This document shows positions 647-29,087 of a DNA stretch of 32,040 nt, one piece after another. Made by a program: the position numbers and the translations under genes. Positions within the stretch are counted from its first letter, which is position 1, and every line of letters starts with the position of its first letter. The DNA is from an uncultured Balneolaceae bacterium. Its GTDB lineage: Bacteria; Bacteroidota; Rhodothermia; Balneolales; Balneolaceae. The stretch is from NCBI GenBank assembly GCA_937125285.1, contig CAKZLH010000377.1:1-32040 (forward strand), written 5' to 3'. A model generated the notes under the pieces. The model saw only the letters and a program-made list of their open reading frames with translations, was not told the origin of the DNA and ran no database searches.

Positions 647-1819
647 ATGTCTGTGTATATACATCATATCGAAACAAGCGTTCCAACCATTCAGGGAGAA
701 CAACGAGCACTTCTAGATCGATTAAAGAAGATTCATGAAGGCGATCGAAAAACTCAAGCCATTCTCCATCGGATTTATCAGCAGTCGGGCATTGAAAACA
801 GACATACCGTAATTGAAGACTATTTTTCCGAAGATTCGGATAGCTTTTTCAATCGCTGCTTCAATCCAGAGGCCATTCCCACAACTGGTGAACGCAATCA
901 ACGCTATGAACAGGCCGCAAAAGAGCTTTTTCTAAAAACAGCCGAACAGCTTATTAAACAACAAAAAACAGCTGAGCTCCCCGAAATAACCCATGTAATA
1001 ACGGTTTCATGTACGGGATTTTTTGCCCCAGGACCCGATTATGAAATCGTGAAAAAGCTAGGATTACCCTCCTCTACTCAGCGTTTTCATGTGGGTTTCA
1101 TGGGCTGCTATGCGGCTTTTCCAGCGCTTCGAATGGCGCACGCTTTTTGTGCTCAGGATCCAAATGCGGTGGTGCTCATTGTGGCCACCGAATTATGTTC
1201 GCTACATTTTAGCCCAAAAACAGACCCTGACACCTTAATTGCTGGCTCGGTGTTTAGTGACGGATCGGCTGGAGCATTGGTTTCTGCGATTAAACCAAAG
1301 GGTAAAGGCTTTGAATTAAAGGGTTTCGCGAATGATTTAGCCTATGAAGGTGAGCAGGATATGGCTTGGACCATTGGTGATACGGGTTTCGACATGACCC
1401 TCTCCTCCTATGTGCCAGATATCATTAAGCAGAATCTAAGTACCATTACCGATCGATTATTCACCACCTTTGACATCCGTCAAGAGCATATATTGGATTG
1501 GGCCATTCATCCAGGAGGACGAGCGATCTTAGACAAGGTAGAGCAAAACTTAGACCTGGATAGCGTACAAATTCAGGCCTCACGTAAAGTATTACAAAAC
1601 TATGGGAACATGAGTAGCGCTACCATATTGTTTGTATTAAAAGAACTGCTAGAGGCTGATTGGGACCACAGGTTGCCACTAGTACAAGAGCCGAAACTTG
1701 AACAAGTGCAAAAGCTACAAGATGAGCAAGACCCTGAGTTATCACCTCTGGTGTTAGCTATGGCTTTTGGTCCTGGTTTGAGTATTGAAAGCGCCTTATT
1801 AGCTAAAGTAAAAGGCTAA
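647..1819 (+). CDS. Type III polyketide synthase (chalcone/stilbene synthase family)
   Basis: The 390-residue length is the usual size for a type III PKS. The thiolase-fold Cys-His-Asn triad is visible: C154 in FMGCYAAF, H288 in AIHPGG and N321 in YGNMSSAT. An upstream SCTGFFAPGPDYE segment (about 121-133) matches the conserved CTxSGxxxPGxDY region. Such enzymes condense an acyl-CoA starter with malonyl-CoA to make alkylpyrones, alkylresorcinols or similar rings without an acyl carrier protein. The ATG at 647 gives a normal N-terminus. The next two genes encode a methyltransferase and an FAD hydroxylase, an arrangement resembling known bacterial phenolic-lipid clusters (for example Streptomyces srs), so the product is probably a methylated and hydroxylated alkyl-aromatic or pyrone lipid. 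Starter length and ring type cannot be read from sequence alone. Confidence 0.93.
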   Translation: MSVYIHHIETSVPTIQGEQRALLDRLKKIHEGDRKTQAILHRIYQQSGIENRHTVIEDYFSEDSDSFFNRCFNPEAIPTTGERNQRYEQAAKELFLKTAEQLIKQQKTAELPEITHVITVSCTGFFAPGPDYEIVKKLGLPSSTQRFHVGFMGCYAAFPALRMAHAFCAQDPNAVVLIVATELCSLHFSPKTDPDTLIAGSVFSDGSAGALVSAIKPKGKGFELKGFANDLAYEGEQDMAWTIGDTGFDMTLSSYVPDIIKQNLSTITDRLFTTFDIRQEHILDWAIHPGGRAILDKVEQNLDLDSVQIQASRKVLQNYGNMSSATILFVLKELLEADWDHRLPLVQEPKLEQVQKLQDEQDPELSPLVLAMAFGPGLSIESALLAKVKG

Positions 1820-1876
1820 ACCTAAGTTATGCTTGTATTCCGTTTCCAGATAATACAAGGTGTTAGAAACTGAATA

Positions 1877-2668
1877 ATGATCAAATTTGCAAATCTAGAT
1901 CAAAGGGCCTCCCATCTCAGCGAACTCATGGATGATGCGCAGGCACCTCTATTGTATCTGCATAATACCTATCGTGATTTTTTTTATCTGAATCGACTGG
2001 TTTCTCAGTGGCGTAGAATATACAAACACAAAATTACACCCCTTTTACGTCGTGACCCCAACAAAAGCTTTCGGCTGCTGGATGTGGGATGTGGAGGTGG
2101 CGACATCGCCTATTATCTATTAAAATGGAGTCAAGCTGACGGTTACAACCTCCAAATTACGGCTATTGACTTGGATGAACGCGCCATCCGATGGGCGGAA
2201 CAACAACAGGAAAAACAAATACAACAACAAAACCAGCAACTGGAACAAGGCCGCCAACAAATAGAATTCAGGGTAGCTTCAACCCGAAAATTACTCGACG
2301 AGAAAAAGCATTTCGACCTGGTGATTAGCAATCATGTCCTACATCACCTTAGTGACGAAGAGGTATCGGTTTTCCTAGAAGAATGTCAACAATTAGGGTC
2401 TACGGTAATTTGTAATGACCTAGAAAGACATCCCATTTCATACCTTATATATAGTGCGTGTTTCCCTCTGCGCTTCCGAAAATCGTTTATTTATGAAGAC
2501 GGAAGAATGAGTATACTAAAGAGTTTTACCCAAAAAGAGCTTCAAAAATGGAGTCCTAATAACTGGCAAGTGACTACGTTGTTTCCATTTCGTCTGCTGG
2601 CCATTTACCATGAAAAACCCACCGAAAAAGAGTCCTTGGATAGTCGTGCTCGGGAGGTTTCGGTTTGA
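1877..2668 (+). CDS. Class I SAM-dependent methyltransferase, polyketide-tailoring candidate
   Basis: This 263-residue protein has a Rossmann methyltransferase core. Motif I is LLDVGCGGGD (about 67-76), the acidic motif II is AIDLDERA (about 96-103) and the post-motif region is SNHVLHHLSDEE (about 151-162). Such enzymes move a methyl group from S-adenosylmethionine to an O, C or N atom; its place between a type III PKS and an FAD monooxygenase points to the polyketide ring as substrate (inference). A glutamine-rich helix of about 23 residues (108-130) lies between motif II and the next strand, longer and more biased than usual. The stop codon overlaps the TTG start of the next gene, suggesting translational coupling. 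A ubiquinone/menaquinone-type UbiE role is less likely given the neighbours. Confidence 0.85.
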   Translation: MIKFANLDQRASHLSELMDDAQAPLLYLHNTYRDFFYLNRLVSQWRRIYKHKITPLLRRDPNKSFRLLDVGCGGGDIAYYLLKWSQADGYNLQITAIDLDERAIRWAEQQQEKQIQQQNQQLEQGRQQIEFRVASTRKLLDEKKHFDLVISNHVLHHLSDEEVSVFLEECQQLGSTVICNDLERHPISYLIYSACFPLRFRKSFIYEDGRMSILKSFTQKELQKWSPNNWQVTTLFPFRLLAIYHEKPTEKESLDSRAREVSV

Positions 2669-3915
2669 AACAACCCTCGACCCAATCAGTGAATTCTCCT
2701 GAAGCAAGGAAATCGACCCAACCCTCGACCCAACCAGCAAAAGCAAGTGCAGCCACAGAAAAACAGCCCATCATGATTGCTGGCGCCGGTCCAGCAGGTC
2801 TGTTCATGGGGTTATGTTTGGCTGAAAAGGGATTTGAGGTGCAGATTTTTGAAAAAAGAACAGAGCTCATTTCCGATTCTCGCTCTTTGGGTATTCACCC
2901 TCCAAGTTTACGCATGCTCGAAAAACTAGGAATCTTGAATGAATTCTTAAAAAAAGGAATAGAAGTGCCCATGGGTTGGGCACATGATGGGCGAGACTTG
3001 CTAGGGAGCATTGATTTTTCAGGAATCGACCAGAAACCATCTTATATCCTGATTCACCCTCAAAACGAGACGGAAAAAATCTTAAAGCAAGCATTCATCG
3101 AACGCATGCCTAATGGGATTCAATATGGAACATCCATTGAATCCTTTACCGATCTCGAATCCGAGATAGCACTCGAGGTGCGAGACCATCAGCACGAACT
3201 CCGGACGTACCATACTCCTATCTTAGTTGCCTGTGATGGAAAAAATAGTACGCTTCGAGAAGCCGCTGCGATTTCCTATGAAGGACTTAACTATCCCGAC
3301 ACCTACCTCATGGGAGACTTTCCTGTGGTTGCTTCGGATCCCAAAGAGCCGATGGTCTACATCACTCAAGAGGGATTGGTTGAATCCTTTCCACTACCCG
3401 ATGGGAAACGAAGATGGGTGGTAAAAACCGAGGAGTACATTCGCAACCCCAAGGTCGAGGAGCTTAGCCAAATTATTAAAAATCGCACGCATGTCACACT
3501 TGAAGCTAATCATTGCTCTATGATTAGTAGTTTCGGGGTACAGCATAGGAAAGCGAGCAAACTACAACGTAATCGATTGTTTTTAGTTGGAGATGCCGCC
3601 CATGTGGTAAGTCCTATAGGGGGGCAGGGGATGAACTTGGGATGGTTAGGAGCTTGGCAATTAAGTGAGGATTTAGCAAGCATGAACTTGGAGGTAACCG
3701 GGCCCTTGAAAATCACCAACTATCAGCGCCATTTTTACGCCACAATTAAGGAAGTTGCCAAGCGAGCCGAATGGAACATGAAAATGGGGCGTAAGAGTCT
3801 ATTTCACAGGCTGAAGGTACAGATTATCCGCCTACTACTTAGCACTCCTTTGACCGCAAAGTTTTTAGCCGGACGTTTTACTATGTCCGGCTTATCGTTC
3901 CCAAAACTGCCTTAA
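2665..3915 (+). CDS. FAD-dependent aromatic-ring monooxygenase (UbiH/PHBH-like)
   Basis: This is a group A flavoprotein hydroxylase. It shows the dinucleotide-binding GAGPAGLFMG at about residues 40-49, an internal VACDGKNS (the DG motif that binds FAD and NAD(P)H) and GDAAHVVSPIGGQGMNLG, the second FAD-binding motif. Enzymes of this class use NAD(P)H and O2 to hydroxylate phenols or quinone precursors. The TTG start at 2665 overlaps the upstream stop and is preceded by GGGAGG seven bases away, which favours it over an internal ATG. It adds about 35 low-complexity residues (QPSTQ repeated, Ser/Thr/Ala/Gln-rich) before the Rossmann fold, with no signal-peptide character. It forms the third gene of the PKS-methyltransferase-oxygenase set, likely hydroxylating or oxidising the polyketide ring. 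Confidence 0.88.
   Translation: MKQPSTQSVNSPEARKSTQPSTQPAKASAATEKQPIMIAGAGPAGLFMGLCLAEKGFEVQIFEKRTELISDSRSLGIHPPSLRMLEKLGILNEFLKKGIEVPMGWAHDGRDLLGSIDFSGIDQKPSYILIHPQNETEKILKQAFIERMPNGIQYGTSIESFTDLESEIALEVRDHQHELRTYHTPILVACDGKNSTLREAAAISYEGLNYPDTYLMGDFPVVASDPKEPMVYITQEGLVESFPLPDGKRRWVVKTEEYIRNPKVEELSQIIKNRTHVTLEANHCSMISSFGVQHRKASKLQRNRLFLVGDAAHVVSPIGGQGMNLGWLGAWQLSEDLASMNLEVTGPLKITNYQRHFYATIKEVAKRAEWNMKMGRKSLFHRLKVQIIRLLLSTPLTAKFLAGRFTMSGLSFPKLP
2672..2733 (+). repeat. 14-bp direct repeat in the monooxygenase N-terminal tail
   Basis: AACCCTCGACCCAA occurs at 2672-2685 and again at 2720-2733, with a shorter TCGACCCAA copy at 2713-2721. The 48-base period keeps the reading frame and gives the repeated peptide QPSTQ. 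It looks like local duplication in a non-catalytic tail. Confidence 0.8.
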
Positions 3916-6883: not shown

Positions 6884-9475
6884 CTATTTCAAAAGTACCA
6901 TACTCTTTATTTCTCGAAGATTAGGCGTAATTAATTCATAGAAATATACCCCACTCGACATCGAGGAGGCATCAGCTTGATAAAACTCACGATACTCTCC
7001 TACCGATCGATATTCATCAACCAGGGTTTGAACAGGTCTTCCAAGCACATCATAAATAGTGAGGCGAACCCATCCTGCTTCGGCTAGTCGAAAAGGTATG
7101 TGTGTATTCGGGTTGAAAGGGTTGGGATAGTTGTTCCCTAAACTTGTCTGCGTAGGCCCTTCCCACTGCGACTCATACGATTGTTCTGGCTCGTTAGATA
7201 CCAATACATCGATGTTGGGTGCGCCTGGCGTCCCCCCGTTAGATGAGGCACTCCAGTACGTCGGTAGCGCATTGTCGAAACCTGCATTAATCAGGGCTAA
7301 GGTGGAACCTTGACCATCGGCTTCGGATGGCCATGGGGCATCATCGGAATAGCGAACCGAATCGATAAGTTGCGCCTGTGCATCAAATAAGCGCAGCAGT
7401 TCACCACTACCCGAAAATCCAAACTCCATTGGACCTTCCACCACCTCTACATTGGGGTAGAAAGAAGAAAAGAGGTCCACACTTTGCGATAGCACTCGAA
7501 ATCCTTTGGCGGGAATCCGGCTATCGGGAGCAAAATAGTATCGATGCGTGTCATCAGAATCCGAAAAATACCAATAGCTCACATCCACATCCGTTTCAGA
7601 TGGATTATACAACTCGACCCAATCTCCGGTATCCATAGCATCGGAGGGGTGGTACTGAATTTCATTAATGACCACCGCACTGGTCTGCTGAAGCGGTATT
7701 TGCTCGAACACTGCGTGCAAGCTCGAAGCGCCGTCAAGGCGTACCCGTATGTGCTCGGCAGTAGACTGATCCAGCCCTTCCCAGCGGACAAATCGATAGC
7801 CAGGATGCGGTACGGCTCGAACCCTTGCCGATAGGTCCTTATATAATAGAAGCTCTTGAGTGGTATCGCTTCGGGCCCCTTCAACCCGAATAATACCCAT
7901 TTCGGGTCGATTGACCGTTGTGCGTAAACCCACCAATTCTGTTGTACTGAAAAAACTCTGAATGTGTTCCCGTTCTTTAGTAGGACGTTCGCTTAAAAAG
8001 TCGCGCATCACTTGCAGATGTTTGTTCCAATCCATATCCGTACCTAAGCGCATGCTCTTCGACCACCTGCGCATATGCTCAGGAACTTCAGAAGCAATTA
8101 AAGCCGCCATAGAATCCAGAAGCGCAAGACTTCGGTTCGGGTTGAAAGAGAGCTGTAAATGCACGCTGTACCGCTGTATGAATGAATCTCTGAATTCTTC
8201 ATTTTCAAATAATTTTCGCATGAGAAGTGTCGCCCAAGCTGGGTGTTCGTAGTCGGTATCGGTGGTGGTATGTATCTTCTCAAACATGTTGGTGGAAAGT
8301 CGACCTCTAGAATGACTATCCATGGTCATGTCGGCATCATAGAGAATCCAGCGCCACTTCCCGGTATCGGCCTGCGCCCTCCAGTATTTAATGTTATTTG
8401 CCGGCCAATCTCCGTTGGCTAGAAAAATTTCGGTGATCAAATAATCCATGTACTGATCCACATCCATTTGCTCGTTCAACCAATTGAAATGTTCTTCGGA
8501 GACCACTCCATTCTGTTCCACATAGTTAATCATGTTTTGATAGTGCTGGGCACTTCCCTCACCCACAGAAGCGTTGCCAGAAAGTAAATCAATGGAATTG
8601 GCATCCACCCCATAGTTAGACTCAATAAAATCTTCGTTCTGCTTCTCTCTTAGAGTGTGAATCCCCCAATATTGACCATTAAAATAGACCGCTACATGCT
8701 TGTAGGATTGATAGGCCAAATCCATACGCCCTCGAACCAGCTCTTGGGAGTACGCATTCCGCACCATCGCTCGATACCAATCCTGCCCACCATTGCGAAG
8801 AGCGAGGCGATTGAATTCGGTGATGGGCTTATCGGGAAATAGTGGATAATTGAGTCGAGACATTCCATATTCGGACCGAAAATAGATATCGAGTGATTTT
8901 TGATCGTAAATTCGCGTACAACCTCCTCCTATTTTCACCCCCGCAGGAACCGAAAAAGATTTTTTGAATCCCTCCACGGATGGATCGAAAAGGGTCAATT
9001 GCACCGGACGCTCCCAATCCTGATTCCAATTGTGCGGAGTGCTTCGACAATAACCTGTGATACCGTTAGATCCCTTGACATAAATGCCCTCTTTCGCCGA
9101 AAAAAAATGATCGGGCTCGAAAACCACCGATAACACGGGAAGCTCATGATCCTCATCGATTAAATAGGTATAAATGGCCTCCACACTATCTTTTGTTTCG
9201 GGTTGAACCGCAAGTACCCGCACCACATTCGAAGACCTTAAGGTGATACCTTGTTCTGGAAAAACCCAGTTGGGTGGCTTTCTTCCCAGCGTGTTAAAGG
9301 TATACTCCCATCCACTTTCCAAGGGTGTGATCTTCAAATGCACAGAGTCTGTATAAAAACCCTCTTCGGGCTCCATTTCAAATGGCAAAGCAGGGGGAAC
9401 CCATTCTTGAGCTTTACTAACAGAAGAGGCTAAGGCAGTTATTATAACTAATAGAATAAGACAAAATCGTGACAT
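6884..9475 (-). CDS. Secreted CotH-kinase/lamin-tail protein with type IX-type sorting domain
   Basis: An 863-residue exported multidomain protein. In order: signal peptide (about 1-22, ending SVSKAQ); a chitobiase C-terminal-like beta domain (about 34-106); a CotH kinase domain (about 112-500) with YFNGQYWGIHTLREKQNEDF and the acidic WILYDADMTMD motif; a divergent InlB-type repeat (about 520-592, ending FEQ); a lamin-tail domain (about 598-755, VVINEIQYHP and WVELYNPS); and a C-terminal sorting domain (about 778-863, with NNYPNPFNP, IYDVLGRPV and SGVYFYEL, ending in Lys). The last is the tag used for type IX-type export and surface attachment. CotH of Bacillus is an atypical protein kinase; whether this homologue phosphorylates anything is unknown. 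It appears monocistronic, transcribed divergently from rplM. Confidence 0.9.
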   Translation of the reverse strand: MSRFCLILLVIITALASSVSKAQEWVPPALPFEMEPEEGFYTDSVHLKITPLESGWEYTFNTLGRKPPNWVFPEQGITLRSSNVVRVLAVQPETKDSVEAIYTYLIDEDHELPVLSVVFEPDHFFSAKEGIYVKGSNGITGYCRSTPHNWNQDWERPVQLTLFDPSVEGFKKSFSVPAGVKIGGGCTRIYDQKSLDIYFRSEYGMSRLNYPLFPDKPITEFNRLALRNGGQDWYRAMVRNAYSQELVRGRMDLAYQSYKHVAVYFNGQYWGIHTLREKQNEDFIESNYGVDANSIDLLSGNASVGEGSAQHYQNMINYVEQNGVVSEEHFNWLNEQMDVDQYMDYLITEIFLANGDWPANNIKYWRAQADTGKWRWILYDADMTMDSHSRGRLSTNMFEKIHTTTDTDYEHPAWATLLMRKLFENEEFRDSFIQRYSVHLQLSFNPNRSLALLDSMAALIASEVPEHMRRWSKSMRLGTDMDWNKHLQVMRDFLSERPTKEREHIQSFFSTTELVGLRTTVNRPEMGIIRVEGARSDTTQELLLYKDLSARVRAVPHPGYRFVRWEGLDQSTAEHIRVRLDGASSLHAVFEQIPLQQTSAVVINEIQYHPSDAMDTGDWVELYNPSETDVDVSYWYFSDSDDTHRYYFAPDSRIPAKGFRVLSQSVDLFSSFYPNVEVVEGPMEFGFSGSGELLRLFDAQAQLIDSVRYSDDAPWPSEADGQGSTLALINAGFDNALPTYWSASSNGGTPGAPNIDVLVSNEPEQSYESQWEGPTQTSLGNNYPNPFNPNTHIPFRLAEAGWVRLTIYDVLGRPVQTLVDEYRSVGEYREFYQADASSMSSGVYFYELITPNLREIKSMVLLK

Positions 9476-23836: not shown

Positions 23837-25762
23837 ATGGCAGGAAACCTTAAAATTCTTGCTCTTACGGGCATAATTGCGCTTCAGAGTATGATAGTGT
23901 CGGGTCAAATAATACCCGGACAGACTTCGTCTGCAGATGTTCAAGAGGAAGCGGCAAAATACGAACGTTACTATGAAGTAGTCTTAGATAATGCGCTCTC
24001 AGATTACTATCGTGAAGGCACATTTATTGTAGATGTAAAAGCTACTCTAGAGCGAATCTTAGTTCCGAAAGGGTACCAAGTGGTTCAACCCGAAGAAGAA
24101 GTTAAGATCGAAAATTTACCTGGACTACCATTCATTCCCCCAAATCTGCAAAAAAATAGACCCACGGGACAAGATAGTATCAAAGCTTCTGGTTTTGATG
24201 CTCGATTTCGGCTAGTTAGACTGAATATTAAGGTATTGGTTGATACATCATACAGTGATGAGGACGTAGATTTCGTAGAAGAAGCGGCCTCACTAATAGC
24301 GAATGCAGATGAATTTAGGGGTGACATTGTATCGGTTAGCAAAAAAGTCTTCCCTAGAAACAGTCGAGCTATCGAACAAGACATAAAAAAGCCGACGGCA
24401 CCAAGTCCTATGCAGCTCTTGGATAGTACAATGGCTGCCCAAGAAAGTACACTTAATGATGATGATGATGATGAGGAATTAGAAGAGCCTGAAATTGTTC
24501 CAGCAGTTCCTGATACTGTCATTCAAACGGTGATGGCAGAACCTGAGAAAAAAATGTTCTTAGGCATTGATTGGAACAACCCACAGCATTTGTTATTCGT
24601 AATTATTGGTCTTGGAGTATTATTTTTGGCAGCTCTACTTTTTGCTCTACTTCGTAAGCCTAAGAAAAATGAAAGTCTACCTGGCATGTATCCACCCGGC
24701 TATGAAGGAAGCAACATGCCACATATGCCTATGCAAGCAATGGCAAAGCAACCAGAAACGCCAAAAGGACCTAGCGCAAAAGAGTTAGCCATCTTTGAGG
24801 AGAACAAAACCTTTATTGCCAACAATTGTATTAGTAAACCTCAGGTCGTTGCCAATGTAGTGAACAAATGGATTGAGGAAGACGAAGAGCAGGGCGTGGT
24901 TAAAGCAGTACGCAGTTTCGTGAGTGTAGATGATAAATTACTGCATATTTTAAAACCTCATATGAAGTCCAGCACCTTTGAAATGGTGAACTATGGCTTG
25001 GATAATGCAGAGAGTATTCCTTTAGAAGAGCGCATTGAAGAAGTTGAGAATTTCCGCAAGAGTATAACTCAATACAAAGCACCAGAATCAGGTGAAGGTA
25101 GTGGCTCTAGTTTATTTGACTTTGTTGATCAGTTGACCGATCAACAACTTCTGCATTTAATGAAAGACGAATCTGATGAAATGGTATCCATATTATTGGC
25201 TCAAATAGCCGGTGAACGAGCTGGGGTCATTCTTCAGAAAATGGATGATGAAAAACGCATTTCTATTCTACTGAAAATGGGTAAAATTAATAGCATTCCT
25301 ATTTCAGTGTACAAAAAAGTGGCCTCGCATTTCTCGAACAAGGCTCTTGCCGTATCCGATATGAAATATGTGGCAGCAGATGGTATAGAATCTATACTTA
25401 ATACTATTGAAACTATGCCTCTATCCGATCAGGATGCATACGTTCGATCTATTGCTGAAAAAGATCTCGAATTGGCCAAGAAAATTCGAAGATTCTTTAT
25501 TGGCTTTGACGATCTTCCAAAAGTTAAGAATGAGTTTGTTCAATCGGCTCTTGATGAAATTCCTACTGAAACACTCATTTTAGCATTGCGAACTGCGCCT
25601 GCAGCCGTGCGTGAAAAAATATTAAAAGTACGACCTAAACGTGAGCAGCAGCTAATTCTATCTGAAGTAGACAACCCATCGGACGCTACGAAAGCAGACA
25701 TTGAAGATGCTCAAAAAGCTGTATTGTATGCGGTCCGTCGTAAAATGAAAACCGAAGCCTAG
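23837..25762 (+). CDS. FliF-FliG-like fusion: membrane-anchored rotor protein
   Basis: This 641-residue protein combines two flagellar rotor parts. Residues 1-24 are a signal peptide. Periplasmic residues about 40-173 resemble the FliF/YscJ C-terminal domain: YYEVVLDNALSDYY, then RLNIKVLVDTSYSDEDV and RGDIVSVSKKVFP. An acidic linker (about 207-220) leads to a transmembrane helix (251-272). The cytoplasmic part has a FliF-tail/FliG-N-like segment (PQVVANVVNKWIEED, about 335-349), a FliG middle domain (about 425-490) and a FliG C-terminal domain (about 515-641) with DLELAKKIRRFF, IGFDDLPKV and LILALRTAPAAVREKIL. Aligned by eye to E. coli FliG, torque residues K264, R281 and D289 correspond to R585, R602 and E610. 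FliF RBM1 and RBM2 are absent. First gene of an operon with motA and motB; probably forms an inner-membrane rotor ring. Confidence 0.82.
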   Translation: MAGNLKILALTGIIALQSMIVSGQIIPGQTSSADVQEEAAKYERYYEVVLDNALSDYYREGTFIVDVKATLERILVPKGYQVVQPEEEVKIENLPGLPFIPPNLQKNRPTGQDSIKASGFDARFRLVRLNIKVLVDTSYSDEDVDFVEEAASLIANADEFRGDIVSVSKKVFPRNSRAIEQDIKKPTAPSPMQLLDSTMAAQESTLNDDDDDEELEEPEIVPAVPDTVIQTVMAEPEKKMFLGIDWNNPQHLLFVIIGLGVLFLAALLFALLRKPKKNESLPGMYPPGYEGSNMPHMPMQAMAKQPETPKGPSAKELAIFEENKTFIANNCISKPQVVANVVNKWIEEDEEQGVVKAVRSFVSVDDKLLHILKPHMKSSTFEMVNYGLDNAESIPLEERIEEVENFRKSITQYKAPESGEGSGSSLFDFVDQLTDQQLLHLMKDESDEMVSILLAQIAGERAGVILQKMDDEKRISILLKMGKINSIPISVYKKVASHFSNKALAVSDMKYVAADGIESILNTIETMPLSDQDAYVRSIAEKDLELAKKIRRFFIGFDDLPKVKNEFVQSALDEIPTETLILALRTAPAAVREKILKVRPKREQQLILSEVDNPSDATKADIEDAQKAVLYAVRRKMKTEA

Positions 25763-25765
25763 GAA

Positions 25766-26956
25766 ATGAAACGTACGCTCACTTTTTTACTTCTTTACTT
25801 GCTAGGTGGTTGGGGCTTCTCGAATGATGCCACTGCGCAATTATTCACTCATGACCAGGGAGATCCCTATATGGTCGAGAAAATTCAGGAACAATTGAAT
25901 CCTGAGTTAGGTGATTTCCCAGTATCAGTGCGCCGAGTAGCTATCTATAAAATCAACTATTCGGCTTTACGATTTACCAATGAAGAAATTGAGTACATTC
26001 GAGCCGAGATGGAATATTCTCTGCGCCAATTTGCAGGCCTAACGGTGCTTTCTCCTCCAGAATTAGAGCCCAATGATAAGCTCAAAATTGTAGGTAATGA
26101 TTCTACTTTGCAAATCTTAAATATGCAGGGACGTTCTCTTGCCGATGTCTCTCCAGAAATGTTGGAAGAAATTGCTTACAAATATGGTGTACAAGGTCTG
26201 GTTGAACTAAGCCTACAACGACGAGAACCCGAAGGCCTAGTGATTGGGATTCGGGTAATGAATCCGCAGTCCAGAGAAGTGGTATGGAGTAAATCATTTA
26301 TTTCAAATCCCCCGGTTGTATTACCTACACTAGATCAAGGCTCTCAGTATTTGCTAACTTTTGGGGTAACTTCCAGAGGATCCGATAGTTGGTATCGTAA
26401 TCAATATGCAAATACCTCTGGTGCACAAATTGATACTACCGGAGCAGGAGCGGGTGCTGGCGCTGGAGTAGATAGCACAGGTAACGGAAGTAATTTCGTT
26501 CATCAAGCCGATACCTTGTTACGACAGGCTTTAACAGATTTTAGTGTAACCTTCTCTTATCGACAACCTTTAGATCTTAGAAATAGTGCTTATATCGGTT
26601 TCACCGCCGGTTATCATGTATTACGTTCCACCAACAGAGATGTAACTCTATTCGATATGTCTCTATTCGACGTTGGTTTAGTCTATTATCAAGCAATTTC
26701 TGAAAAAGTGCCCGATATCGATGAGTATCGAGTGGTATTTTATTCACGCGCCAATGTTCAATTTCCTCTAGGAAATAACCGCCAAGGTGAAGTCTTCATG
26801 CTTGAACCTGGGCTTCAGTTTCATCTGAGTAAGAACATTGGATTATCCGTATTTGGCAATTTGATGCTGGCCGGAGACACTATAAAACTGTCTAACAAAG
26901 ATCGTTTAACCTACAACAAATCAGGATTTGGATTCCATGCGGTTATCAGATTCTAA
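25766..26956 (+). CDS. Outer-membrane CsgG/FlgO-like protein with putative beta-barrel C-terminus
   Basis: A 396-residue exported protein with a signal peptide at 1-25 (cleavage after NDATA). Residues about 56-180 have the alternating strand-helix pattern of CsgG/LpoB/FlgO-type periplasmic domains: VRRVAIYKINY, EMEYSLRQFAGLTVLSPPEL, YKYGVQGLVELSLQR and IGIRVMNPQSREVVWSKSF. A low-complexity GAGAGAGAG linker (about 227-235) precedes about 140 residues rich in aromatic, strand-like segments ending HAVIRF, a terminal Phe typical of outer-membrane barrels. It begins three bases after the FliF-FliG gene and overlaps the next gene, so it is a component of the same machine. I suggest an outer-membrane ring or anchor. 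Domain assignment is from pattern, not a search. Confidence 0.6.
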   Translation: MKRTLTFLLLYLLGGWGFSNDATAQLFTHDQGDPYMVEKIQEQLNPELGDFPVSVRRVAIYKINYSALRFTNEEIEYIRAEMEYSLRQFAGLTVLSPPELEPNDKLKIVGNDSTLQILNMQGRSLADVSPEMLEEIAYKYGVQGLVELSLQRREPEGLVIGIRVMNPQSREVVWSKSFISNPPVVLPTLDQGSQYLLTFGVTSRGSDSWYRNQYANTSGAQIDTTGAGAGAGAGVDSTGNGSNFVHQADTLLRQALTDFSVTFSYRQPLDLRNSAYIGFTAGYHVLRSTNRDVTLFDMSLFDVGLVYYQAISEKVPDIDEYRVVFYSRANVQFPLGNNRQGEVFMLEPGLQFHLSKNIGLSVFGNLMLAGDTIKLSNKDRLTYNKSGFGFHAVIRF

Positions 26957-27560
26957 CAATTACTATACGTTTGCTTTATTCGCGGCTATCGTGATCAGTC
27001 TAGCATGCGCGACGCCAGAATCGGTTCAGAATACTTCTAACAGTAATCTGAATGACCAAAACAATCGTCGGACGGTCAATACCAATCCTCGAAGTACTTC
27101 AAGCGTGGTGGATGACTCACCTGCAAAGGAAGTCATTACGGTTAATTATTTAAATGAAAGTTCAAATATCCAGATTAAATTGGATCCGTCTAAAGAGCAG
27201 TTCTATTTGGATTTACGAGGTATGCGTCCTGCCGATAAAGACTCTATAGTGGTAGTAGATTCTTCGCTAATACAAACACGTGCACGCGATATTCAAACTT
27301 TGTTATCTAACTATCGCAAAGCTCAGGATTTATTTTATCTAGGAGAATATAAACAGTCCTTAGAATTTATCGACAAAACTCTAGAAATACAGGAAACGGC
27401 CGATGCCTATGCCCTCAAAGGCACCGTATTCTTTATGTTGGAAAATATTACAGCAGCTCGCGCCAATTGGAATCGTGCGGTTCAAATGGATCCAAACATT
27501 CCAATTCCAAGTATACCTGAATTAGAAACTTTAATTCAAGAGATCCGCGGAGGTCAATAA
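26937..27560 (+). CDS. TPR-repeat lipoprotein of the motor operon
   Basis: I chose the ATG at 26937, inside the end of the preceding gene (20-base overlap); an upstream TTG at 26928 would add three residues. The 207-residue product has a signal sequence ending in VISLAC, where C24 is a plausible lipidation site, though the -3 residue (Ser) is atypical. An Asn/Thr/Ser-rich linker follows (about 25-60), then a short beta segment (YLNESSNIQIKLDPSKE). A C-terminal helical part (about 120-195) carries about two TPR-like repeats, LFYLGEYKQSLEFIDKTLEI and AYALKGTVFFMLENITAARA. Such lipoproteins often scaffold envelope machines. It sits between the outer-membrane protein and MotA, so it may bridge the two. 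Confidence 0.7.
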   Translation: MRLSDSNNYYTFALFAAIVISLACATPESVQNTSNSNLNDQNNRRTVNTNPRSTSSVVDDSPAKEVITVNYLNESSNIQIKLDPSKEQFYLDLRGMRPADKDSIVVVDSSLIQTRARDIQTLLSNYRKAQDLFYLGEYKQSLEFIDKTLEIQETADAYALKGTVFFMLENITAARANWNRAVQMDPNIPIPSIPELETLIQEIRGGQ

Positions 27561-27563
27561 ACC

Positions 27564-28379
27564 ATGAAAATTTCAATCGGAAGTGTTATTGGGGTCTTAT
27601 TTTGTTTGGGCCTACTGGTATTCGGAGTTACCGAGACAATCGGGGTAACTACCTTCGTAGAATCTATACCTGCCCTCTCAGGTAATCCCTTTTTAAACAT
27701 CCCTAGTTTATTTATCGTATTGGGTGGAGTGCTTCAAGCATCGTTAATTACCTATCAACCTCGTTATGTGGGTAAAGCTTTGATGGGTATCATTTATTTG
27801 TTTAGTCAAGCCAGAACATCCAAAAAAACGCTCCAAAAAGATTTTGAAACCATTGTAGAATGGAGTGACGATATTAAAAAAGATCGTGTTGGGGCGCTAA
27901 ACAAACTAGAAAGTGAGTATGGAGGTGAAATCTCGGGATATCTCTTCTCTCTTCTCAGCACCAACTACTCTAGTGAAGATATTGAGACCTTTGGGTCGAA
28001 TCACATTGAGGAAAATTACTTCCGTCAAATGGTCATTGTAGATGTGCTACGAGCAATGGGTGGTGCGGCTCCTTCTTTTGGAATGTTTGGTACGCTCTTC
28101 GGTCTAATCGTAATGCTTGGAGAACTGGACGACCCCTCCAACATGGGGCCTGGTCTTGCAGCAGCACTTATGACTACGTTATATGGTATCATTTTTGCGC
28201 GCTTTGTATTCTATCCTATAGCTGAAAAAATTAAAAATGCGGCTCAGATGAATAAATTCCGTGAATATTTTGTATTGGAAGGTATTGTGCTCATCAATGA
28301 CAAAAAATCGTCCTTTTATATTCAGGATAAACTGAGTACCTACTTACAACGAGATTTCAAGAAACAAAAGGCAGAGTAA
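27564..28379 (+). CDS. motA: MotA-type stator proton/sodium channel subunit
   Basis: This 271-residue inner-membrane protein has four hydrophobic segments (about 5-25, 46-64, 160-186 and 196-219) and a large cytoplasmic loop. The channel signature APSFGMFGTLFGLIVML contains P170, and P218 lies in FVFYPIAEK, matching E. coli MotA P173 and P222. In the loop, R108 and E116 keep the eight-residue spacing of E. coli R90 and E98, which contact FliG charges. The sequence is much closer to MotA/PomA than to ExbB, TolQ or GldL. It starts three bases after the TPR lipoprotein gene. With MotB it should form an ion-driven stator acting on the FliF-FliG fusion. Confidence 0.92.
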   Translation: MKISIGSVIGVLFCLGLLVFGVTETIGVTTFVESIPALSGNPFLNIPSLFIVLGGVLQASLITYQPRYVGKALMGIIYLFSQARTSKKTLQKDFETIVEWSDDIKKDRVGALNKLESEYGGEISGYLFSLLSTNYSSEDIETFGSNHIEENYFRQMVIVDVLRAMGGAAPSFGMFGTLFGLIVMLGELDDPSNMGPGLAAALMTTLYGIIFARFVFYPIAEKIKNAAQMNKFREYFVLEGIVLINDKKSSFYIQDKLSTYLQRDFKKQKAE

Positions 28380-28418
28380 GTTTAGTAACACTAACCGATA
28401 TTCTGAGCATAGTAAATC

Positions 28419-29087
28419 ATGAAACGACGACAACAAAATAGTTCTTTTGACGATGCCGAAGAGGATCAGGAGTGGCTACTCACCTATAGTGATATGATCA
28501 CCTTGTTACTGGCCTTCTTCGCTATGCTTATCGCTGTTTCCCAAACCGATATCGCACTTTGGGAGCAGATGAAGCAGGGAATGCGCTCCGATGTTGCCGG
28601 TAAAGAAAAAGTTGAAACTCCTTTGGCCGAAATTAAACTGGACCTGGACTCTTTACTGGTTGAAGAACGGAATCAGGGTTTAGTGGGTGTAATTTTAGAT
28701 AAAGATGGCATTAAATTATCCTTCAATAGTAGCTCATTATACAACTCTGGAGAGGCGATTCTTCTACCTTCTGGAGAGCGTATCATCAACAAGGTGACCC
28801 AGGCATTGAATCTTTTGGATTATTATCAGTTCCGAGTCGATGTGGAAGGTCATACTGATAATGTACCCATTAATACCGCAAGGTTTCCTTCTAACTGGGA
28901 GCTATCCGTAGCCCGAGCCTCTGAAGTAGTTAAGTTTTTTATTCGTGAGGGCATTGAGGGTGACCGATTGAAAGCCTCTGGCTATGCCGATACCAAACCA
29001 GTTTTGCCCCATGTCGACGAATTTGGACGAGATATTGTAGAAAATCGTGCGGCCAATCGTCGGATCCTAATTCGTATCTATTACTAA
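28419..29087 (+). CDS. motB: MotB-type stator subunit with OmpA peptidoglycan-binding domain
   Basis: A 222-residue protein with a short cytoplasmic N-terminus and one transmembrane helix (about 18-41) in the motif WLLTYSDMITLLLAFFAML. D25 is the essential ion-binding aspartate (E. coli D32). A linker of about 50 residues leads to a C-terminal OmpA/MotB domain: VEGHTDNVPI, WELSVARASEVVKFF, ASGYADTKPV and NRAANRRILIRI, which anchors to peptidoglycan. Length is shorter than E. coli MotB (308) but usual for many species. Last gene of the motor operon, 39 bases after motA. Confidence 0.93.
   Translation: MKRRQQNSSFDDAEEDQEWLLTYSDMITLLLAFFAMLIAVSQTDIALWEQMKQGMRSDVAGKEKVETPLAEIKLDLDSLLVEERNQGLVGVILDKDGIKLSFNSSSLYNSGEAILLPSGERIINKVTQALNLLDYYQFRVDVEGHTDNVPINTARFPSNWELSVARASEVVKFFIREGIEGDRLKASGYADTKPVLPHVDEFGRDIVENRAANRRILIRIYY

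Follow-up and report, generated by a model that had tools for sequence, protein, structure and literature searches.

Five adjacent genes of an uncultured Balneolaceae bacterium, a set carried by marine members of this family, probably encode a rotary motor that works in the cell envelope on its own, apart from any flagellum. The genes lie at positions 23837-29087 of the window (the whole stretch of 32,040 nucleotides that was analysed, contig CAKZLH010000377.1 of assembly GCA_937125285.1), all on the forward strand, and encode a FliF/FliG fusion (FG), an outer-membrane protein, a TPR lipoprotein, MotA and MotB. Their sequences make the motor parts well supported as a dedicated rotor and stator outside the flagellum, from which torque or force would reach the outer membrane; from the sequences we infer ring formation, rotation, coupling to the outer membrane and a biological role.

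FliF/FliG, the rotor of the flagellum, has to our knowledge been credited with a function only there. For the stator and the export apparatus, by contrast, relatives in non-flagellar systems are known, and the injectisome reuses the export side. The operon family offers a concrete candidate, a minimal motor of FliG and MotAB whose gene partners are fixed and which occurs in genomes without a flagellum, among them that of an apparent isolate (Balneola sp. EhC07). Such a motor would mirror the injectisome on the motor side, and it bears on the modularity of motor evolution. A search of the open-access literature found no earlier description of it.

Operon organization

The sequence-only reading described five tightly packed genes, and the open reading frames agree with it in gene content, strand and spacing, with intergenic gaps of 3, -29, 3 and 39 bases. 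The operon has paralogous classes; in class II, a chaperone-usher-like cassette replaces the outer-membrane protein found in the window's class I. Mapping the gene order across relatives, proposed earlier as a check, shows the same five-gene order at every class I locus (here and below, all loci means all loci that were read), which rules out chance adjacency. The class I loci are fewer than their list suggests, because some of L066-L080 belong to the same genomes as L035-L052. Contamination of the assembly is an unlikely origin, since a cleaner genome of the same genus (93% complete, 1% contamination) carries the operon at about 90% identity and in the same local context. A scan for promoters and terminators scored scarcely above shuffled sequences.

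A one-piece rotor candidate

FG (23837..25762, + strand, 641 aa) is identified as a one-piece rotor candidate by Pfam, PDB profile and fold matches. It begins with a signal peptide, followed by the C-terminal part of FliF (an RBM3-like ring domain, a TM2 equivalent and a FliG-binding tail) and then by FliG. Whereas a complete FliF M-ring protein has two transmembrane helices and RBM1-3, FG has a single transmembrane helix besides its signal peptide, and TM1, RBM1 and RBM2 are missing. The FliF-FliG fusion first read from the letters is real in both halves, with FliG recognised by Pfam, although FliF is represented by its C-terminal part alone.

The FliG half has Pfam matches to FliG_C (4e-19; 25448..25750, +) and FliG_M (4e-8; 25142..25357, +), the latter also aligned with 12 flagellar FliGs. 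For the FliF half, the YscJ_FliF_C family matches the N-terminal parts of 16 of the 20 family members, at best with 1.4e-4, and the window's own protein at E=0.19 only. Moreover, FG profiles match standalone FliF genes that adjoin fliG in other genomes, and a profile-profile comparison of class II FG with FliF gives an E of 1.6e-8, where a shuffled FliF control returns nothing. PDB profile searches match FG to FliG (1e-32) and FliF (0.005). The predicted FG structure, which is weak overall (pLDDT 57, with the periplasmic part mostly below 50), matches the folds of C-ring FliG and MS-ring RBM3.

In particular, residues 33-173 (23933..24355, +) form a putative RBM3-like periplasmic domain, assigned by alignment, by fold matches to FliF rings and by the topology of the low-confidence model (helix-strand-strand-helix-strand, with an insert between strands); its RGD at 161-163 is invariant in the alignment. 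The helix at residues 249-271 (24581..24649, +), modelled with a pLDDT of about 80, is the predicted equivalent of FliF TM2, and the profile alignment of class II runs colinearly with FliF here. Further, residues 324-351 (24806..24889, +) resemble the FliF C-tail and are a putative FliG-binding helix, matching FliF 515-542 (probability 84%, E 7e-6) and, weakly, 5tdy_A.

The stator-facing domain of FG keeps most of the charges that contact the stator. E. coli FliG residues K264, R281 and D289 map to R585, R602 and E610; the R281 equivalent is invariant across classes I and II, D289 is replaced by E, and K264 is not conserved in class II. The modelled FliG_C has a TM-score of 0.83 against T. maritima FliG-C and of 0.76 against stator-bound FliG (8ucs). 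The FliM-binding motif EHPQ..R is lost in every FG examined (ESDE..K in the window), and the flagellar FliGs form a clade that excludes FG.

A dedicated stator

Genes 4 and 5 are predicted to encode a MotAB-type stator pair, to which an A5B2 stoichiometry and ion-driven rotation may be ascribed. MotA (27564..28379, +) is supported by Pfam (MotA_ExbB, 1e-18), by a tree and by individual residues: P170 and P218 are the counterparts of E. coli P173 and P222, with equivalents conserved in all classes, and basic residue R90 is K or R in class I, where the aligned column of E98 is not conserved. In the tree, FG-linked MotAs from classes I and II group as one clade that leaves out flagellar MotA, and the window's MotA is nearer to the flagellar MotP/PomA/MotA models than to TolQ/ExbB. 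MotB (28419..29087, +) contains a plug/transmembrane region and an OmpA peptidoglycan-binding domain (MotB_plug 3e-14, OmpA 1e-13, and alignment), and its D25, within the transmembrane helix, is invariant and occupies by motif the position of E. coli D32.

Rotor and stator also co-occur. A MotA gene is found near every locus whose FG has FliG_C, except two on truncated contigs, and the three usher loci whose FG has no FliG_C also have no MotAB. ExbBD, TolQR, GldLM, AglRQS and ZorAB likewise have a MotA/MotB-class stator outside the flagellum; we know of none with a FliF/FliG rotor. A PADLOC search for Zorya defence returned generic ZorB matches to MotB and none for MotA or the other genes; with no ZorA or other Zorya component found, that candidate was rejected.

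In the proposed mechanism, copies of FG would assemble into one ring through the RBM3-like domain, the single transmembrane helix and an internal junction between the FliF tail and the N-terminal part of FliG, merging the M-ring and the FliG ring without a FliM/FliN switch. MotA5B2 units, held to peptidoglycan by MotB's OmpA domain, would draw on the ion-motive force and act through FliG_C to turn or push this ring, and a periplasmic collar together with the TPR lipoprotein would transmit torque or force to the outer-membrane barrel protein.

Independence from the flagellum

The window's listed open reading frames include no recognisable gene for a flagellar switch, export apparatus, rod, hook or filament, in accord with the sequence-only reading, whose phrase "without the rest of a flagellum" is right for the window and wrong for the genome. 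Flagellar genes are present on contigs C336, C216 and C175, with FliF and FliG on C336, MotAB, FliM, FliN and FlhA on C216, and a further piece of FlhA on C175. The operon is thus neither the flagellar motor nor its relic, because the flagellum has its own FliF, FliG, MotAB, FliM, FliN and FlhA; the case named earlier as a refutation, in which these genes would be the flagellum's only rotor and stator, does not apply. In the cleaner assembly of a relative (G001), the FG operon is likewise separate from the flagellar genes.

Within a survey confined to Bacteroidota, 14 of 23 FG-bearing genomes have neither FlhA nor FliM/FliN, two of the 14 being single-contig assemblies. Among the named records, 6 of 10 have no FlhA, including Balneola sp. 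EhC07 and the chromosome record CP051242. Close relatives without a flagellum keep the operon, and it is therefore probably a separate, undescribed ion-driven machine. The flagellum's own gene set and these relatives support the earlier proposal of a non-flagellar, ion-driven rotary machine that may act on the outer membrane. That the window's genome is flagellated would suit an accessory or spare flagellar motor module, or a decaying flagellar duplicate, but such an origin is very improbable: genomes that have neither FlhA nor FliM/FliN carry FG operons in intact, conserved form, FG no longer has the FliM-binding motif, and the FG-linked MotA is a separate clade. On the flagellum-less genomes and the MotA clade, a relic or accessory of the flagellum was rejected.

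Compared with the flagellar motor core, the operon shares a homologous FliF C-terminal part, FliG_M/C, MotA, and a MotB with plug and OmpA domains; in contrast, its rotor is one fused protein, it has no FliM/FliN and no export apparatus, and it adds the outer-membrane barrel protein and the TPR lipoprotein. Another natural combination of a reduced FliF with part of FliG is the Chlamydiaceae fusion of about 330 aa, from a bacterium not thought to be flagellated, in which FliF, FliL and FlhA are the flagellar proteins named (PMC4768692). That fusion has homology to FliG_M only and is missing part of the SctJ domain as well as the SpoIIIAG-like (RBM3) domain (PMC4768692), whereas FG, compared with it by description, keeps an RBM3-like domain and FliG_C and has a dedicated MotAB.

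Predicted partners at the outer membrane

The AlphaFold2 model of the outer-membrane protein (25766..26956, +), of modest confidence (pLDDT 63) and searched with Foldseek, has an LpoB/TolB-N/PelC-like periplasmic domain (residues ~57-179; TM-score to LpoB of 0.62, normalised by target) followed by a C-terminal 8-stranded beta-barrel (~194-396). The earlier label "CsgG/FlgO-like" is reasonable as a statement about this modelled fold and finds no support in sequence, as none of 16 members has a CsgG or FlgO match in Pfam at E up to 10. Pfam returns no match for the window's protein, and OMP_b-brl matches weakly in 5 of 16 relatives. Comparisons of the family profile by hhalign with E. coli CsgG (not significant) and with TolB gave nothing useful, and a PDB sequence search gave nothing or weak matches only. 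The gene for the TPR lipoprotein (26928..27560, +; Pfam TPR_1 2e-8, and alignment) overlaps its upstream neighbour by 29 bases, and Cys27 is invariant in 11 orthologues. A coupling of FG to the outer-membrane protein is suggested by their membership in one operon and by analogy with class II.

The same partners could serve a non-rotary energiser of the Tol/Ton kind, in which MotAB would push a static FG ring, FliG would be a docking site and not a turning track, and the lipoprotein and outer-membrane protein would spend the force on holding or remodelling the outer membrane or on opening a channel. The modelled resemblance to LpoB/TolB-N/PelC suits this alternative, as do the TPR lipoprotein, a type typical of envelope-maintenance complexes, and the absence of a filament gene linked to class I. 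However, the conserved FliG_C charges are those that face a turning stator, FliG_C and MotA co-occur across loci, and FG carries parts of the FliF ring, which makes a static energiser unlikely, though it keeps an appreciable share of the probability.

The neighbours of class I and class III operons are mostly housekeeping or strain-specific genes, and no pilin, chaperone or usher gene lies in or beside class I operons. One protein encoded in the window does bear a C-terminal sorting motif of the T9SS type, and the second FG locus of the same genome has a SprA gene nearby. These two observations would fit a motor for gliding or surface motility whose ring would drive a surface adhesin through the outer-membrane protein, as in Gld/T9SS or Agl/Glt; non-flagellar 5:2 motors do drive gliding elsewhere (PMC9389320, PMC13104615). 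Yet no gliding is reported for Balneolaeota or Rhodothermaeota (PMC5167729) and class I operons show no consistent linkage to any adhesin gene, and a gliding function is quite improbable.

Class II operons

In class II, the cassette consists of an usher with a C-terminal TPR, a PapD_N-like chaperone and DUF4402 pilin-like genes, and at most loci the genes for FG, a TPR protein and MotAB follow it immediately downstream. The TPR of the class I lipoprotein is homologous both to the class II TPR and to the C-terminal TPR of the usher. The Usher family of Pfam matches 4 of 16 class II usher members, two of them over the cut-off. Single-sequence hhalign comparisons of the usher, chaperone and pilin-like profiles with E. 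coli FimD, EcpC, FimC, EcpB and EcpA were weak or empty, and PDB sequence searches with the chaperone and pilin-like profiles gave nothing or weak matches only; the usher label consequently rests on the Pfam matches and the gene context. Class II thereby resembles the chaperone-usher pathway, from which it differs in the C-terminal TPR of the usher and the downstream motor genes; the window's operon, with no usher, chaperone or pilin, does not share the likeness. We know of no such motor in known chaperone-usher pathways.

Usher pili are regarded as independent of energy at the outer membrane, and class II bears on whether some of them are powered by ion flow. Its outer-membrane partner would be the chaperone-usher-like pilus system, and the general design would be an ion-driven motor that energises an outer-membrane assembly, for its assembly, secretion, rotation or retraction. 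We tentatively suggest, as a possibility that falls somewhat short of probable, that Balneolales and some relatives have a separate class of trans-envelope rotary machines with interchangeable versions (a barrel complex in the window, a chaperone-usher pilus elsewhere), which would take over rotor and stator from the flagellum but not its type III export, switch, rod, hook or filament. If so, the pilus version would provide ion-driven rotation or assembly for pili thought to be energy-free at the outer membrane. A distant family in the same phylum has the same five components in a different order.

The operon and the flagellum of the same genome

The operon lies on contig C377 of a metagenome-assembled genome of 2.68 Mb (completeness 87%, contamination 7%), whose closest named relatives are the Balneolaceae. 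Five open reading frames run in one direction at 23837-29087 with intergenic gaps of 3, -29, 3 and 39 bases, bearing out the tight packing described in the sequence-only reading. Pfam assigns FliG_M and FliG_C to gene 1, TPR to gene 3, MotA_ExbB to gene 4, and MotB_plug and OmpA to gene 5; gene 2 (OMP) has no family match. The OMP model (pLDDT 63) combines an LpoB/TolB-N/PelC-like domain with an eight-stranded OmpA/NspA/OmpW-like barrel, and the lipobox cysteine of the TPR protein is invariant in the alignment.

The genome search suggested by that reading located fliM, fliN and flhA on contigs other than the operon's. In particular, C336 carries flgB, flgC, fliE, fliF, fliG, fliH, fliI and fliJ (names from reading the open reading frames, fliG by profile), and C216 carries MotAB, FliM, FliN and FlhA; a further piece of FlhA lies on C175. 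The rival possibility of a flagellum whose only FliF, FliG, MotA and MotB come from the operon is contradicted, because the flagellum has its own set on C336 and C216 and because other genomes bear the fusion protein encoded by gene 1 (FG) without FlhA or FliM/FliN. FlhA is absent from 14 of 23 FG-bearing genomes, and FliM/FliN from the identical 14, including the single-contig genomes G231 and G042; FlhA was also absent from the named records Balneola sp. EhC07 and chromosome CP051242. In a relative (G001; completeness 93%, contamination 1%), the flagellum and the FG system are both present on separate contigs. Since the tests for switch, export and full FliF fail, we reject the operon as a flagellum and classify it as a variant of the FliG-MotAB motor; it is very probably a dedicated non-flagellar FliF/FliG-MotAB system.

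A FliF C-terminal part joined to FliG

At 641 aa, FG comprises a signal peptide, a periplasmic domain, a single transmembrane helix (249-271) and a cytoplasmic FliG. Because the window's own FG scores only E = 0.19 against YscJ_FliF_C, its FliF identity required further analysis. Across the family, 16 of 20 N-terminal parts match YscJ_FliF_C (best 1.4e-4), and FG profiles match standalone FliF genes that adjoin fliG elsewhere in the phylum, with open reading frames confirmed in ten genomes. With hhalign, residues 186-343 of class II FG (paralogous systems, below) align with FliF 378-542 (E 1.6e-8), and residues 324-351 of class I FG (the window type) align with the FliG-binding tail of FliF (7e-6); shuffled FliF, as a control, gave no match to FG. 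An FG profile search of the PDB found FliG (1e-32) and FliF (0.005). The low-confidence periplasmic model is helix-strand-strand-helix-strand with an insert between two strands, and Foldseek placed C-ring FliG first, followed by FliF RBM3 rings. FG is therefore the FliF C-terminal part joined to FliG; the proposed FliF-FliG fusion stands for FliG (FliG_M, FliG_C) and this part of FliF, and not for the first transmembrane helix and ring domains RBM1 and RBM2, which are missing. The FliF half is firm at the family level, the window sequence by itself being insufficient.

Gene order and usher-linked systems

The order FG-OMP-TPR-MotA-MotB is constant in all class I loci read, down to ~45% FG identity. 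A distantly related family within the phylum has the order OMP-TPR-MotA-MotB-FG, flanked by housekeeping genes, and its OMP and TPR match their class I counterparts by profile (E 4e-7 and 4e-17).

In class II systems (L046, 669-12047; also L051, L054, L056 and L126-L130), pilin-like genes come first, followed in order by a PapD-like chaperone, a ~1000-aa protein with a C-terminal TPR and, directly after it, FG; a TPR lipoprotein, MotA and a MotB that often carries a SPOR extension complete the set. The ~1000-aa protein matches Pfam Usher in 4 of 16 members (two above the cut-off), the chaperone weakly matches PapD_N (best 0.003), and 13 of 18 pilin-like genes match DUF4402. Because none of the comparisons with individual ushers, chaperones and pilins of E. 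coli reached significance, we apply the label usher-like with moderate confidence. Homology between the usher C-terminal TPR and the class I TPR lipoprotein (E 1e-20) marks the TPR as a candidate adaptor connecting the rotor to the outer membrane. The window genome itself has a second, divergent FG-TPR-MotA-MotB operon of this class on contig C334 (L042, 921-4924), with a truncated usher-like fragment upstream at the contig edge and a SprA (T9SS) gene ~3 kb downstream.

Further, three usher-linked FG relatives lack FliG_C (L041, 7814-8635, 273 aa; L060, 7892-9430, 512 aa; L061, 6857-7888, 343 aa), and none has MotA within ~6.5 kb, making them possible motor-less versions. MotA is nearby in all loci with FliG_C, save two where the contig ends on that side. 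This co-occurrence, across loci that are not independent, links FliG_C to MotAB function within FG systems.

The rotor-stator interface and a possible mechanism

FG R602 (E. coli FliG R281) is invariant in classes I and II and is Lys in class III, a further FG class. E610 (D289) stays Glu throughout classes I and II; the exception is the second, divergent FG found in the window's own genus, with a non-acidic residue in L042. At R585 (K264), class I mostly has R/K/Y, and class II has hydrophobic residues in most cases. The FliM-binding EHPQ..R motif is retained in 12 of 12 flagellar FliGs (one H-to-Q change) and gone from every FG examined. The MotA R90 position is K/R in class I, prolines at MotA 173 and 222 are retained in all MotA classes, and MotB D25 is invariant in the alignment. 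Class I and II MotAs group as one clade (95/97) and flagellar MotAs of the same order as another (99/100), subject to a long-branch warning; flagellar FliGs, including that of E. coli, form one clade (100/99) without FG.

The sequences establish which parts are present, how they are ordered, that they are independent of the flagellum and that interface residues are kept. By analogy with flagella, FG would form a ring driven by MotA5B2, with MotB anchored to peptidoglycan; the system probably rotates. From operon and class II context, the TPR lipoprotein and OMP may receive the torque or force, and we consider it an even call that the system drives an outer-membrane partner. No adhesin or pilin was linked to class I among the loci read, and gliding is unreported for the phylum (PMC5167729).

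The excerpts consulted from reviews of 5:2 motors and gliding make no mention of a FliG rotor outside flagella. Full-text searches of open-access PMC papers, pairing FliG or MotA with terms for the chaperone-usher pathway, FliG-like proteins or Balneola, turned up no description of the system (preprints excluded; an unseen report is possible). Among natural proteins, the nearest precedent is a FliF-FliG fusion of chlamydiae; as described, it differs in having no RBM3-like domain and a match to FliG_M only (PMC4768692).

Elsewhere in the window, the C-terminus of an 863-aa protein (6884-9475) resembles a T9SS sorting signal (NYPNPFNP...), an indication that the organism may have a type IX secretion system. 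At 647-3915, a type III polyketide synthase, a methyltransferase and an FAD monooxygenase, named by eye, lie in a row as an apparent small biosynthetic cluster.
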